DNA of 64,000 nucleotides, from the NCBI GenBank assembly GCA_030950375.1, contig JAUZRN010000015.1, forward strand, positions 1-64,000, read 5' to 3'. The position numbers and the translations under genes are program-made. Shown here piece by piece: positions 1-5,018 of the stretch; the first letter of the stretch is position 1; each line of letters begins with the position of its first letter. Source of the stretch: Rhodothermus sp. Lineage in GTDB: Bacteria; Bacteroidota; Rhodothermia; Rhodothermales; Rhodothermaceae. A model generated the notes under the pieces. That model searched no databases. It saw nothing but the letters and a program-made list of their open reading frames with translations, and had not been told where the DNA came from.

Positions 1-147
1 GAACCTGACCCCATTTCGCTTTGCCCCGGGCATGATGCGGGTGTGCACGGCGCGTTCCAGGCCCTTCTCCAGACACACAAGCTTATCTTACACATAGCCG
101 GCCGGAGCCCCTCGGGTGCGAACTACAAAGCACAAAGGAGATGGGTT
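1..147. other. Left-edge non-coding leader
   Basis: No gene can be supported here. An open frame starting at 43 runs into the peptide gene, but its first 35 codons look like untranslated leader. The part from 112 is a near-exact copy of the leader of the second peptide gene, so this stretch probably holds the promoter and 5' UTR of the first peptide. Confidence 0.5.
112..140 (+). repeat. Leader repeat, copy A
   Basis: This 29-bp stretch, ending in ACTACAAAGCACAAAGGAG, recurs identically at 1928-1956. In both places it ends with the Shine-Dalgarno AAAGGAG a few bases before the start codon of a small secreted peptide. The sequence shows the repeat directly. A shared regulatory leader or a recent duplication of the leader is inference. 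Confidence 0.85.
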
Positions 148-363
148 ATGAGACAGCTACTGCTAATCTTAAGTGTATTGATAGGATTCAGTATCTCCTC
201 ATTTACCTTTTCGCCTCCAGAAGAAGCATGCCAGTGGGAGACAGATACCTGTCTGGTGATCATCCTTCAATATGAAGGGTTCTGGGAAATGATAATCCGC
301 TGCGATAATGGCTACCGAGATGAAATTATTCAGGAGGGAATCTGGGGATTCTGCCCGGAATAA
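148..363 (+). CDS. Small secreted Cys-containing peptide, paired with a beta-propeller
   Basis: A 71-residue protein. The start at 148 was chosen because AAAGGAG lies just upstream at the end of the leader repeat. Residues 1-20 (MRQLLLILSVLIGF...) form a signal-peptide-like hydrophobic segment. The mature part is acidic with four cysteines, in contexts ACQ, TCL, RCD and FCP. It overlaps the following propeller gene. By position it resembles the NVEALA-type peptides that precede 6-bladed propeller proteins in Bacteroidota, although the NVEALA motif is not seen in this copy. The function is unknown; a secreted ligand or structural peptide is possible. Confidence 0.6.
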   Translation: MRQLLLILSVLIGFSISSFTFSPPEEACQWETDTCLVIILQYEGFWEMIIRCDNGYRDEIIQEGIWGFCPE

Positions 364-1459
364 GGCTAACGTAGGCCCCGGTTTATGCCTGGGGCTCCTT
401 TTGCTGCTCTTTTTCGGGAAGCAATCTGGCCAGGGACAGCCTACATCGATCCTGTCGCCGGATCTGGTCCTGCCGGGCCATCTCTTTGCCCGCGCAGTAT
501 CGGTAGCGCTGGATCGCCATCAGCACATCCTGGTGGCAGATGCCGGCGCCTACCACATCGTGTACTTTAATGCCCAAGGGGTCCCGATCGACACGTTGGG
601 CCGCCGGGGCAACGGACCGGGCGAGTTTCAAACGCTGACACGTATTGCCACGTCTCCTGAGGGGGACTGGCTGTTCGTGCTGGAGGATATGCCTCGACGC
701 GTACATCGCTGGCGTCTGCATCCTGGCCTTCGCCACATCGACACCCGCACTTTTCCTTCACTGCCTCTTCCGGCCCACTGGCCGCTGGAGCTGTGGGCCA
801 TCAGCGCTGACACGCTGATTCTTCGTTTTGCAGCCAGTTTGATCGACGCAGGCTTTCATGGACTCTACCGCTATCAGTGGTCGAATCGGCAGCTTCGCCT
901 GCTGCTTTCGCTGCGTGAAAATGAGGTCATTCGCCGGGGAGGGCGGCGCACAATCTTTCCCTTTCTGGCGCGCCAACTGGTGGCCGTTCGGCCTCCCCAC
1001 GGCATAGCTCTGGCCTGGAGCGACAGCCTGCAGGTGGTGTTGCATGACCTGAACGGCCACGTGCAGGCGCGCCGTCGCTTCCGCGCGCCTTCGCCTCCTC
1101 CCCTGACCTCCGAAGACTGGGCCAGAGCACGTCGATTGGATGCCCGGTTCGCCTCGGCTGCCCTGCCCCGCCTCAAACGGACGCACTGGCCCTACATCGA
1201 CAATCTGCTGCTGGACGATGTCGGCAACATATGGGTACGGCTTACTCAGGGATGGCCGGACAAGCAGCTCCAAAGCACGCGTTACCTGGTGCTTACTCCT
1301 CGCGGCAATCTGCAGACGGTCGATCTGGAGGGCACTATTGACCTTGAGGTCGTGCAGAACGGCCGGGCGTTGGGCCTGCGACGAGAACCGGACGGTACCC
1401 GATCGGTGGTCGTTTTCTCACGGATTCGCCTGCGCCAGCAAGAGGCCACGCAAGAATAA
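308..1459 (+). CDS. 6-bladed beta-propeller protein (first copy)
   Basis: A 383-residue protein with a hydrophobic export segment near residues 24-36 (LCLGLLLLLFFG). The motif GRRGNGPGEFQTL near residues 97-109 is typical of the 6-bladed beta-propeller (NHL-like) proteins of Bacteroidota. It is probably exported to the periplasm or cell surface; the ligand is unknown. The start is uncertain: ATG at 308 overlaps the peptide gene by 56 nt and has no clear ribosome site, and ATG at 323 is also possible. Overlap with the peptide gene suggests translational coupling. A paralogue follows at 2196-3275. The fold is likely; the role is not known. Confidence 0.75.
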   Translation: MATEMKLFRRESGDSARNKANVGPGLCLGLLLLLFFGKQSGQGQPTSILSPDLVLPGHLFARAVSVALDRHQHILVADAGAYHIVYFNAQGVPIDTLGRRGNGPGEFQTLTRIATSPEGDWLFVLEDMPRRVHRWRLHPGLRHIDTRTFPSLPLPAHWPLELWAISADTLILRFAASLIDAGFHGLYRYQWSNRQLRLLLSLRENEVIRRGGRRTIFPFLARQLVAVRPPHGIALAWSDSLQVVLHDLNGHVQARRRFRAPSPPPLTSEDWARARRLDARFASAALPRLKRTHWPYIDNLLLDDVGNIWVRLTQGWPDKQLQSTRYLVLTPRGNLQTVDLEGTIDLEVVQNGRALGLRREPDGTRSVVVFSRIRLRQQEATQE

Positions 1460-1873
1460 TTAATTGACCGTCCCGACAAAGCGCAAACAGGACGCAAGCG
1501 ACACTCCGCTTACAGCGTGCCCAAGAGGCTCTGCCTGCCTTCTGCAGTGGGATTCACGTGCCCACACACGGTGCTGTGCTCTCTGCAGACCGGACGGGGA
1601 TTCATCCACTTTTCCTACAGGTCCCTGGAAAAAGCGCCTTTCTGCTCCCATCTTGCAATCCAAAGAACCACTCCCAGGATTTGACAAGTCGGGGCGCGCG
1701 GGCCCGCGTCCCTGCCAGCCCAGCATTTCCAAGACGCCGGCTGCATCCATCCTGCCCCCACGTATGCAGCCAGTGCGCCTGTCAACCGATGCGCCTTTCT
1801 TCCCATAAGCTGCTGAAATTTCAGCCATTCCTCCCCCATCGTCCCTCTTGACAAGGTGTGTGTGTGTTAATTA

Positions 1874-1906
1874 GGGGTGCGAGGCCGGTCGTCCGGCCCG
1901 CACCCC
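1874..1906. other. Strong hairpin in the leader of the second unit
   Basis: GGGGTGCG-A-GGCCGG pairs with CCGGCCCGCACCCC around a TCGT loop. This gives 14 base pairs with one bulged A at 1882. No T-run follows on either strand, so a rho-independent terminator is unlikely. It lies 58 bp before the second peptide start, consistent with a 5' UTR structure. Confidence 0.7.
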
Positions 1907-1927
1907 CGACGGCCGGCCCGGGATCCA

Positions 1928-1956
1928 TCGGGTGCGAACTACAAAGCACAAAGGAG
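1928..1956 (+). repeat. Leader repeat, copy B
   Basis: This is the second copy of the 29-bp leader at 112-140, again ending in AAAGGAG just before an ATG, here at 1964. The flanking sequence is only weakly similar between copies, which points to selection on the leader or to gene conversion rather than a young large duplication. Confidence 0.85.
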
Positions 1957-1963
1957 GTGCATC

Positions 1964-2186
1964 ATGAAGCGCCTGTTGCTTCCCATTGCCCTGATGCTCT
2001 CCAACCCGTAGAGACGTGGTCGCGAATGCCGTGGCGGTGATGACGCCTTCCGAAGCCTGTGCCGGTAGCTGTGCAGAGGCAAATTGTCCAGGAAGCGGTG
2101 CGCTTTGTTGCCGACAGGTTAAGTCGTATCTTTTTGGGTTAATCAAAGAAACCCAAGAGACTTACGAAAATCCTCCACAGGAATAA
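1964..2186 (+). pseudogene. Frameshifted secreted Cys-rich peptide (NVEALA-like)
   Basis: From the ATG at 1964, behind AAAGGAGG, the frame reads MKRLLLPIALMLSNP and then hits TAG at 2009. In the +1 frame a coherent peptide continues: RDVVANAVAVMTPSEACAGSC, then AEANCPGSGALCC and a tail ending at the TAA at 2184-2186. Removing one C from the CCC run near 2005-2007 joins the two parts. The joined protein would have a signal-like N-terminus, an ANAVAV stretch resembling the NVEALA motif, and five cysteines. The stop lies 9 nt before the propeller start, so the two would be coupled. It may be a real frameshift, programmed slippage or a sequencing error. Confidence 0.6.
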
Positions 2187-2195
2187 AAACAGCAC

Positions 2196-3275
2196 ATGCG
2201 CCGTCTTTCTCTGGTAGCCGGAAGTGTGCTCCTGCTGCTGGGGCTGGGCCTGTTGTGGACGCTTTCCTCTTCATCCAGTTTTTCAGGCCAGCCTGTGCCG
2301 TCCGATCGTCTTCCCTCCCCCCGTCCGCAAGCGCGCACCACACGGCAGGTCCAGCCGGTTATGCTGCAGCAGGTGCGCCTGTTCGGACGTGAGGCGCTCC
2401 TGTACACGGTAGACTTTATCCACGCCGGCCCCGAAGCGACCGTATATGTCCTGGACCGGGGCCGGCACCAGGTCCTCCGTTTTGATCTCAAGACGGGCCG
2501 CCTGCTGCAACGTTATGGAAAAGGTCCGGGAGAAGGGCCAGGCGAATTCCAGATGATTACCGACTTTAAAGTGGACCGGGCCGGGCGCGTCTACGTCTGC
2601 GATCCGGTGAATGCCCGCATCACGCTGTTCGCGCCGGACGGCCAACTTCTGGCCACCCTTTCGCTGGATCGTCCGCCCTACGGACTGGCCCTGATGGCCG
2701 ATGCGCTGCTGGTCATTCAGTTACTCCGGGCCCGCTCGGATGGTCTGTTTGAAGTGTACCGTCTGGAGCAGAAGCCTGATGGTGCCTACCGGCTACGCTT
2801 CCTGCGTCGCTTTGGGGAATTTCTAAAAAATCAGGCGGCCTTCAGTTTGCTACTGGATGGTCGCCTTACAGGCGCCGACAGTTTTTTCGTCTATGCCCCG
2901 CGACGCATCGGCTGGCTTACCGCGTTTTACCCGGACGGCCGCCTCCGCTTTCACCGGGAAACCATCGATCCGATCCCGATTCCACGCCTGGTGCGGCGCG
3001 GTGACGTGGAGCAGGTAGACCGCAAGGCGCCGATCGCCACCTACGAGTTGACCGTCGACGGCCCCCGTCTTTATACCTGGAGCAAGGGGCGCGACGGCCA
3101 GGCCTACGTGGACGTTTACAGTGCCTATACTGGAGACTATCAATTCTCACTCCCCCTCGACCTCAAAGGACTGATTGACGTCCAGGATTCTCTGATCTAT
3201 GCAGCCCACGACACCCTGGTCACGGTCTGGCGCTGGCGCCCTGCTGTGCCGGATTCGGAGGGAAGTAGCTCTTGA
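2196..3275 (+). CDS. 6-bladed beta-propeller protein (second copy)
   Basis: A 359-residue protein with an N-terminal hydrophobic anchor or signal (residues 5-24, LVAGSVLLLLGLGLLWTL). It has the family signature GKGPGEGPGEFQMI near residues 109-122, followed by blade-like repeats such as RAGRVYVCDPVNARITLF. Same family and same context as the protein at 308-1459: each follows a small secreted peptide behind the same leader. It is probably a lipid-free exported or membrane-tethered binding protein. The substrate is unknown. The start at 2196 is supported by close spacing to the peptide stop and by the export signal directly after it. Confidence 0.75.
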   Translation: MRRLSLVAGSVLLLLGLGLLWTLSSSSSFSGQPVPSDRLPSPRPQARTTRQVQPVMLQQVRLFGREALLYTVDFIHAGPEATVYVLDRGRHQVLRFDLKTGRLLQRYGKGPGEGPGEFQMITDFKVDRAGRVYVCDPVNARITLFAPDGQLLATLSLDRPPYGLALMADALLVIQLLRARSDGLFEVYRLEQKPDGAYRLRFLRRFGEFLKNQAAFSLLLDGRLTGADSFFVYAPRRIGWLTAFYPDGRLRFHRETIDPIPIPRLVRRGDVEQVDRKAPIATYELTVDGPRLYTWSKGRDGQAYVDVYSAYTGDYQFSLPLDLKGLIDVQDSLIYAAHDTLVTVWRWRPAVPDSEGSSS

Positions 3276-3449
3276 GTAAGGCAGCCTGTCCGTGTACGCG
3301 CTCGACGGATGTGGAGGCTGCTCCCCTCACGGAAAAGCCATAGAGCAAGGCCCTGGCGCACTCGTGGTCGGTAGCGTCCGTCACGGAAAACAGGGACCAT
3401 CAGTTCCTCTTCCTGAACAGCTACGCAGCAAGTGCCCCTTTCCTGCCCC
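3276..3449. other. Intergenic, convergent
   Basis: This 174-bp stretch separates the plus-strand propeller from the minus-strand coiled-coil gene. It contains two copies of TCACGGAAAA, near 3326 and 3380. No clear terminator with a T-run is visible. Confidence 0.4.
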
Positions 3450-3842
3450 TCACCGCAACAGAGCAAACAACGCCACAATCACCCCGATCTGCCCTGCCCA
3501 AAACACAAACATCCACCGAATCAACCGCGTATGTCCCTGGCTGATCTGCACCCGCAAACGCATCTCCACCTCCGCAAGACGCGTCTCCAGTTTCGCTACC
3601 TCTTCCGTAAGGCGCTTGTCCAGCACCGCAATCTGACGTTCCAGCTTCGACTCCACCCCCTGAATCTGACGCTCCAGACGTGCTCCCTCCTCCGTGACCC
3701 GACGCGCAAACCGCTCCTCTACGATTCCTAACAGGTTGTTCCGCTCATGACGGACTGCCTCATTGAGCAACGCAATCAATGCCTCGACCCCTGCCTCCCC
3801 CAGCTTTTCTCGTAATACTTTGGGTACGGTCAAAATCGCCAT
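3450..3842 (-). CDS. Coiled-coil protein with C-terminal membrane helix
   Basis: A 130-residue protein. Residues 1-35 contain a short helical head (MAILTVPKVLREKLGEAG). Residues 36-105 form a charged heptad-like coiled coil with repeated LERQ, LETRL and VEMRL blocks. Residues 108-129 (LIRWMFVFWAGQIGVIVALFAL) form one membrane helix. This layout matches the DUF1640/CCDC90-like small coiled-coil proteins of bacteria, often encoded next to toxin-like or mobile loci. It probably oligomerises at the inner membrane. No enzymatic motif is seen and the function is unknown. Confidence 0.65.
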   Translation of the reverse strand: MAILTVPKVLREKLGEAGVEALIALLNEAVRHERNNLLGIVEERFARRVTEEGARLERQIQGVESKLERQIAVLDKRLTEEVAKLETRLAEVEMRLRVQISQGHTRLIRWMFVFWAGQIGVIVALFALLR

Positions 3843-4265: not shown

Positions 4266-5018
4266 ATGCTACACACGATTGAAAAAGCCTGTAAAACGTT
4301 ACGTCTTTTCACCGAAGAGAAGCCGGAATGGGGCGTCACGGAATTAGCCCGTACGTTACGTATTCCCAAATCCAGCGCAGCAGGTATCCTATCGACCCTG
4401 GCGCATTACGGGCTGCTACGCCGAACGCCTTCGCGGAAATACCGATTGGGCTGGGAAATTCTGCGGCTGCACAGGCTGTTGGTGGAGACGTCCGAGTTTC
4501 GACAGCTGGCCCATCAGGAGATGGAGCGTCTGGTCCGAGAATACGGCGAAACGACGCATTTAGCTACGCTGGAAAATGGCATGGTAGTGTACATAGACAA
4601 AGTGGAAGGCTCGCGTTCTGTTCGGGTACACGTTACCGGTCTGGGCGTGCGCCTTCCCCCGCATGGAAGTGCGGTTGGCAAGATATTGCTGGCTTACCGT
4701 CCCTGGCCAGAGGTCCTGGAGATTATCCGGCGTCAGGGGCTCCCAGCGCTGACCCCCAACACCATTACCAAGCTGGAGCACCTGGAACAGGAGTTGATTC
4801 GGGTGCGTCAGCAGGGCTATGCGATTGATGAGGAAGAGGTGCTGCCTGAGCTATGCTGCGTGGCTGCGCCCATTCGTAACTACCTGCGGCAAACAATTGC
4901 AGCGATGAGCATCTCGGCCCCCTCCTACCGTTTTCGCCTCATGCGCGAGCGCTACACGCAGGCCGTCGTGGCCGCCTGCCAGCGCATTTCCAGGAAGCTG
5001 GGTTTTGCCTGTGGTTGA
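4266..5018 (+). CDS. IclR-family transcriptional regulator
   Basis: A 250-residue protein, the usual IclR length. Residues 1-60 form the winged helix-turn-helix (TELARTLRIPKSSAAGILSTL is the recognition region). Residues 75-245 form the effector-binding domain, with GMVVYIDKVEGSRSVRVH and the LPPHGSAVGKILLA block typical of the family. Many IclR members control aromatic degradation operons. This gene lies tail-to-tail with the 15-gene aromatic cluster, its stop 2 bp from the last gene, and is the only regulator nearby. It is therefore the likely controller of the hpaB promoter at about 18.1 kb, responding to an aromatic substrate or intermediate. The family is clear; the target is inferred. 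Confidence 0.9.
   Translation: MLHTIEKACKTLRLFTEEKPEWGVTELARTLRIPKSSAAGILSTLAHYGLLRRTPSRKYRLGWEILRLHRLLVETSEFRQLAHQEMERLVREYGETTHLATLENGMVVYIDKVEGSRSVRVHVTGLGVRLPPHGSAVGKILLAYRPWPEVLEIIRRQGLPALTPNTITKLEHLEQELIRVRQQGYAIDEEEVLPELCCVAAPIRNYLRQTIAAMSISAPSYRFRLMRERYTQAVVAACQRISRKLGFACG

Follow-up and report, generated by a model that had tools for sequence, protein, structure and literature searches.

A recurrent control element ahead of small exported proteins in Rhodothermus, many of them apparently paired with NHL-type beta-propellers

The DUF5128 family (PF17170; e.g., B. fragilis BF0058, PDB 4raa) comprises 6-bladed beta-propellers of Bacteroidota, and the NVEALA peptides (PF14055) of Bacteroides, which are short, exported and Cys containing, are described as neighbors of propeller genes. 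We know of no function for such propeller/peptide neighbors, and the literature on NVEALA and on propeller-peptide operons yielded nothing useful. Among structured 5′ leaders, the preQ1 and SAM-II riboswitches contain H-type pseudoknots. In NHLRC2 and SOQ1, a thioredoxin-like domain is fused with an NHL propeller (PMC6107167), and the fimbriae of H. influenzae are switched when a TA repeat changes the spacing of the -35 and -10 boxes of hifA/hifB (PMC2651432). Here, we describe a stretch of 64,000 nucleotides (nt) from Rhodothermus sp. (assembly GCA_030950375.1, contig JAUZRN010000015.1; the window) that begins with two units, each consisting of a peptide gene (broken in unit 2) and a propeller gene behind a common leader. 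The best-supported interpretation of the sequence comparisons is that in Rhodothermus one control element is shared among small exported proteins, a large part of which have a propeller partner. Whether the locus as a whole represents two members of a Rhodothermus regulon for such proteins, with a shared control element, paired propellers and a putative role in antagonism, is in our judgment an even call.

The window opens contig C15 of a 68-contig assembly (G000, which was read in stretches around matches), and it was compared with the other Rhodothermus species, 7 in all and each represented by one genome (G000 to G006). The features of the two units are as follows (aa, amino acids).

1..140, + strand: unit 1 leader, partial, with the element's 3′ end on a different upstream sequence; covariance-model E value 0.003
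112..140, + strand: leader copy 1, 29 bp, with Shine-Dalgarno sequence AAAGGAG
148..363, + strand: peptide B, 71 aa, hydrophobic N terminus, 4 Cys, ending in ...GFCPE; group members in C57, G003, G005 and G006
308..1459, + strand: propeller 1, start at 308 or 320, 6-bladed NHL type; PF17170 score of 20.9 bits, under the cut-off
1813..1824, no strand: palindrome CTGAAATTTCAG, whose middle two bases differ among copies (CTGAAnnTTCAG)
1848..1872, + strand: promoter-like TTGACA (1848-1853), 13-nt GT-repeat spacer (1854-1866) and TTAATT (1867-1872); spacer of 9 to 27 nt in other full copies
1883..1893, + strand: 5′ arm (GGCCGGTCGTC) of the well-supported stem P1; compensatory changes in 4 of the 11 pairs
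1899..1905, + strand: loop CGCACCC, 5′ arm of the likely pseudoknot P2; hardly any variation, with pairing in 98.5% of cells
1908..1918, + strand: 3′ arm (GACGGCCGGCC) of stem P1, pairing with 1883-1893
1928..1956, + strand: leader copy 2, 29 bp; GGGTGCG (1930-1936) is the 3′ arm of P2, followed by the Shine-Dalgarno sequence
1964..2186, + strand: remnant of peptide A, 15 codons to a TAG at 2009-2011; 32-nt deletion at 2001/2002, remainder in another frame
2196..3275, + strand: propeller 2, 359 aa, a hydrophobic helix at the N terminus (2-25) followed by a 6-bladed NHL-type propeller; PF17170 score of 33.8 bits

A preliminary description of this DNA had pointed to an identical 29-bp leader with a ribosome site before each unit, and this much holds: the sequence TCGGGTGCGAACTACAAAGCACAAAGGAG has exactly two copies in the window, whereas shuffled sequences contain a mean of 0. 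Near and exact copies also occur elsewhere in G000 and in two sister species, and their alignment revealed a larger repeated element of ~150 nt, of which the 29 bp are the 3′ end. The element is made up, in order, of the palindrome CTGAAnnTTCAG, CATTCCTCCCCCATCGTCCCTC, the boxes TTGACA and TTAATT with a GT repeat between them, a structured stretch rich in G+C, CATCGGGTGCGAAC, the Shine-Dalgarno sequence and ATG. What the two units share is its 3′ part and not the complete element, which of the two is full length in unit 2 only (1813-1966). The palindrome lies ~30 bp 5′ of TTGACA and is a candidate activator site; as a genome-wide operator, CTGAAnnTTCAG made a weak case (7 sites, 3 of them in leaders) and was set aside. 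On the minus strand, positions 1615-1854 can be read away from the promoter as MGEEWLKFQ..MGRKAHRL.., a stretch conserved as DNA in many leaders; this small open reading frame (ORF), which overlaps the promoter, contains stops in several copies and was judged to be probably noncoding.

A covariance model built from 8 leader copies matched at 24 places in 5 of the 7 Rhodothermus species (two of these, in C3 and C21 of G000, are overlapping contig ends of one copy) and gave no match in 53 genomes from other genera within the order. An exact-pattern scan outside Rhodothermus returned a single archaeal match within an unrelated coding region, which we regard as chance. Further leader copies, whose absence would have told against the preliminary description, thus exist, and its idea of common expression is supported, the leader standing before exported small proteins. 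Downstream are found peptide A with a propeller, peptide B with a propeller, and other peptide-propeller pairs (in G002 and in contigs C53 and C39). In C42 of G000 and C22 of G006, the leader precedes a hydrophobic, Gly-rich peptide (GIGA..GTAIGC) and then a DUF5687-like ABC-2 permease, a bacteriocin-like layout, and in C182 and C207 of G006 it precedes lipoproteins (one with a Gly/Ala-rich hydrophobic C terminus) followed by a small membrane protein. C42 carries another leader at its contig end. As encoded, the products behind the leaders are mostly exported.

Between TTGACA and TTAATT, the spacer ranges from 9 to 27 nt over copies and orthologues, in two-base steps and only in odd lengths, because it is the number of GT units that varies. 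Outside the repeat, two orthologous leaders (G000 C53 and G006 C75) share 99% identity; their spacers are 11 and 25 nt long, respectively. By analogy with hifA/hifB, where two promoter boxes are likewise separated by a dinucleotide repeat that varies in length, we consider the (GT)n spacer to be a candidate phase-variation switch; the Rhodothermus repeat differs in being GT and in lying in the promoters of many paralogues, and switching is here putative. G000 also has a second promoter family, TTGACA-n5-(GT)n-TATCTTA (C10:162402, C33:65763 and C51:546; L101, L102 and L103), preceding near-identical genes that start with MSATQKIGLGLLLLTLSWS..., all close to contig ends.

Downstream of the promoter boxes, the leader RNA is predicted to fold. 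In 20 aligned copies, the 11-bp stem P1 is formed in 94.8% of cells, and four of its pairs (10 cells) show changes on both sides; we regard this stem as well supported. In 98.5% of cells, its loop, CGCACCC, can pair with GGGTGCG of the 29-bp leader, a likely H-type pseudoknot (P2). The structure as a whole is paired in 96.2% of cells, versus 25 to 39% when slid, and its covariation score was reached by 2 of 500 shuffles. In the divergent copies C53 and C39 the stem sequences are very different, yet the stem and the CGCACCC/GGGTGCG pair are kept. A local hairpin (GGGTGCG.GGCCGG/TCGT/CCGGCC.CGCACCC) was rejected as the main fold, as it has no covariation and fails in the divergent copies, although competition with P1 is possible. 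A plain RNAalifold analysis of 8 leaders found no compensatory pairs. Like the preQ1 and SAM-II riboswitches, the leader would combine a stem with pairing between a loop and a downstream sequence near the ribosome site; unlike them, it has no known ligand and matched no described family in an Rfam scan of window positions 1-3400 at E values up to 5, which returned chance matches only.

The large ORFs of both units encode 6-bladed propellers, as the preliminary description had proposed, and these are of the NHL type. Propeller 2 exceeds the PF17170 gathering score (33.8 versus 22.9 bits), and its AlphaFold2 model (predicted local distance difference test [pLDDT] score, 87.8) found as best Foldseek matches the NHL domains of Brat, Thin and TRIM2/71, with 4raa at rank 18; propeller 1 was grouped with the other propellers by an iterated profile. 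The Rhodothermus propellers thus share a profile match and fold with DUF5128 and are distinguished by their ties to Cys-containing peptides and, for part of them, to the pseudoknot leader. The two peptide-propeller units fared less evenly. In unit 1, both genes are intact, the propeller gene overlapping that of peptide B by 44 to 56 nt and showing 79% DNA identity to its G003 orthologue. In unit 2, propeller 2 is intact and 97% identical to its G006 orthologue, but the peptide gene is broken: alignment with the G006 orthologue (C95) and with an intact G000 paralogue (C3/C21) reveals that 32 nt are gone at 2001/2002, taking out the core of the signal peptide and shifting the frame. The C95 locus, with 91% DNA identity across window positions 1700-3677, encodes an intact 84-aa peptide. 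Since the G003 orthologue of unit 1 is also damaged (its peptide is truncated and its propeller has an internal stop), decay of single members is common.

The leader of unit 1 lacks both the TTGACA-(GT)n promoter and the CGCACCC partner for the pseudoknot, and its covariance-model match is weak. It comprises only the 3′ part of the element, and unit 1 is probably transcribed from upstream. The first ~140 bp of the window are a repeat that also occurs in contig C57, and in G003 the unit syntenic with unit 1 stands after a propeller gene (propeller D). Draft assemblies break within these repeats, so the order of units near C8, C57 and C15 is uncertain. Downstream of both units, positions 4266-5018 encode an IclR-type regulator adjoining aromatic-degradation-like genes.

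Pairing of peptides with propellers is general. The seven genomes have strongly differing numbers of PF17170 matches (26 in G000, 25 in G006, 15 in G003, 14 in G005, 3 in G002, 1 in G004 and 0 in G001). At 14 of 19 propeller loci in G000 (those cut by a contig end being left out), an exported, Cys-containing peptide ORF lies directly upstream; of the other five, one has what is likely a frameshifted remnant, one has an ORF of 32 aa without Cys, and three have nothing that we recognized. At C7 and at C60a, a pair of peptides precedes a pair of propellers. We collected 39 peptides, a set partly redundant across species, of which 31 end in Glu and 14 in Pro-Glu, against a background of 5.5% of long ORFs for terminal Glu; a majority ends in Glu in five of eight similarity clusters (p about 2e-5). 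This residue is not a by-product of the next gene's Shine-Dalgarno sequence, since GAA and GAG are both used, with overlaps as well as gaps. Scans of the peptides against Pfam, NCBIfam and PADLOC, bacteriocin models included, matched no family, and membership of NVEALA was rejected: no PF14055 match was obtained in any of the seven genomes, whereas a control genome, Bacteroides ihuae, gave matches to both PF17170 and PF14055. Two propeller genes, L010:12415-13506 and L083 (C17 of G000), have third-position G+C contents (GC3) of 0.27 to 0.29, versus about 0.67 in their relatives, which suggests recent import.

At several loci there is a third gene, whose product is anchored in the membrane and carries two motifs, CGPS (with one Cys) and a cis-proline TP. 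In a fold search, the AlphaFold2 model of this protein (pLDDT, 79.5) matches DsbE/ResA-type thioredoxin folds, although a sequence-profile search of the PDB gave no match. Among 114 genomes from the order, 25 contain relatives of it, which adjoin propellers in those inspected, also outside the genus; in G042, one such relative has a Cys-containing peptide upstream. As in NHLRC2 and plant SOQ1, a thioredoxin fold and a 6-bladed NHL propeller are neighbors (and PDB profile matches include both domains), but in Rhodothermus they are encoded by separate genes, the motif is a single-Cys CGPS rather than CCINC, and a Cys-containing peptide is added.

Taken together, a full-length unit comprises the ~150-nt element, a gene for a small Cys-containing peptide and the gene of its paired propeller. 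The length of the GT repeat may tune or switch the promoter, and the pseudoknot may govern access of the ribosome to the Shine-Dalgarno sequence. The peptide would be exported by the Sec route and then disulfide bonded in the envelope, where some loci add the membrane-anchored thioredoxin-fold protein. Presumably, each peptide is bound by its own propeller, with the conserved C-terminal Glu contributing to recognition. Most likely, the two serve as a cognate pair of secreted peptide and envelope partner. Antagonism with self-protection is possible because the same leader drives the Gly-rich, bacteriocin-like peptides that accompany an ABC transporter, and it is suggested by that company together with living propellers beside dead peptides.

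Several observations tell against this interpretation. Three or four propeller loci have no recognizable peptide, and in G003 propellers C and D lack one of their own; propellers without peptides, which the preliminary description would have counted against itself, thus exist, as does one in the window that outlives its peptide. The thioredoxin-fold gene is absent from both window units. Assignment of the -35 and -10 boxes was visual, and their spacing is often far from any known optimum. P2 hardly varies, so that covariation backs P1 only; the shuffle test is inflated by related sequences; and it is possible that the inverted repeat acts as DNA, not RNA. Peptide genes and their starts were called by simple rules (ORF, Shine-Dalgarno sequence and hydrophobicity) and not by a trained gene caller. 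Orthologous peptides are conserved, varying less than arms-race toxins typically do, and a plain envelope complex fits the data about as well as antagonism does.

Such a complex would be a plain paralogous family, a fixed peptide-propeller assembly at the surface or in the periplasm (for display, adhesion, signaling or redox) with an ordinary strong promoter, its GT length and RNA fold being neutral and copied by duplication. We consider this a tenable though lesser alternative. Where the ratio of nonsynonymous to synonymous substitution rates (dN/dS) could be computed between orthologues, it was 0.05 to 0.37 for the mature peptide and similar for propellers; such purifying selection on both genes is in keeping with a fixed complex, as is the thioredoxin-fold partner, with NHLRC2/SOQ1 as a parallel. 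The compensatory changes in P1, the same leader before unrelated products and the range of 0 to 26 copies among species do not. A dedicated bacteriocin/immunity arsenal, in which the peptide is a toxin against relatives, the propeller its immunity partner and unit 2 of the window an orphan immunity gene, is likewise possible but not favored. The leader's presence before Gly-rich peptides with an ABC transporter and before lipoproteins with a small membrane protein would be in keeping with this, as would the intact propeller beside a dead peptide, the peptide-less propellers C and D and the patchy distribution; against it are the failure of the peptides to match any bacteriocin, PADLOC or NCBIfam model, the size of the propellers (~360 aa, unusual for immunity proteins), the low dN/dS and the lack of an export gene in the window units, for which the Sec route is assumed. 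We are doubtful, too, of the fullest version, in which a Rhodothermus-specific, phase-variable, RNA-pseudoknot-controlled arsenal would consist of numerous dispersed units of secreted Cys-containing peptides and their cognate NHL propellers, together with the bacteriocin-like units, the propellers recognizing the peptides' C-terminal Glu and the units being coordinated through homogenization of the shared promoter/leader cassette.

The preliminary description had favored a cassette system in which the peptide diversifies behind a constant leader; such a system, with hypervariable peptides swapped by recombination, now seems quite improbable. It holds only so far as leaders look homogenized within genomes and one leader half precedes different units. 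Leaders are often closest within one genome despite unrelated genes behind them (G2a and G2b are 96% identical, and G6 C22A and C182 are 100% identical outside the GT repeat), which suggests that the leader/promoter has been copied or converted within genomes, although G000 and G006 are close relatives and not cleanly separable in this comparison. Likewise, the junction of propeller D with the leader bears a B2-type unit in G003 and a B1-type unit in C57 of G000, but the C57 junction lies inside the 140-bp repeat, where an assembly error is possible. The peptides, by contrast, are not seen to diversify: they are conserved within orthologous units, peptides A and B of the window fall into two separate groups rather than being versions of one peptide, and the diversity lies between old paralogues. 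No integrase, attC or invertase was seen, although no dedicated search for an integrase or attC was made, and, unlike integron-type cassettes (attC 3′ of each ORF plus an integrase), the leader is 5′ of its ORFs and dispersed over contigs. Least probable of all is a small mobile or repetitive extragenic palindromic (REP)-like repeat with an incidental promoter, its position before genes selected and its structure the element's own biology: identical copies before unrelated operons and repeats at contig ends would suit it, but nearly all copies examined are in the same orientation directly 5′ of a start codon with a Shine-Dalgarno sequence, and none were seen away from genes.

Whichever reading holds, the leader is an RNA/promoter motif without an Rfam match here. 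With 26 propellers in one genome, a control element common to many units, a C-terminal residue shared by most peptides and a recurrent thioredoxin-fold partner, the system offers handles for a binding assay, a reporter and proteomics. If the GT repeat does switch expression, this would be promoter phase variation across a multigene family of exported peptides in a thermophile.

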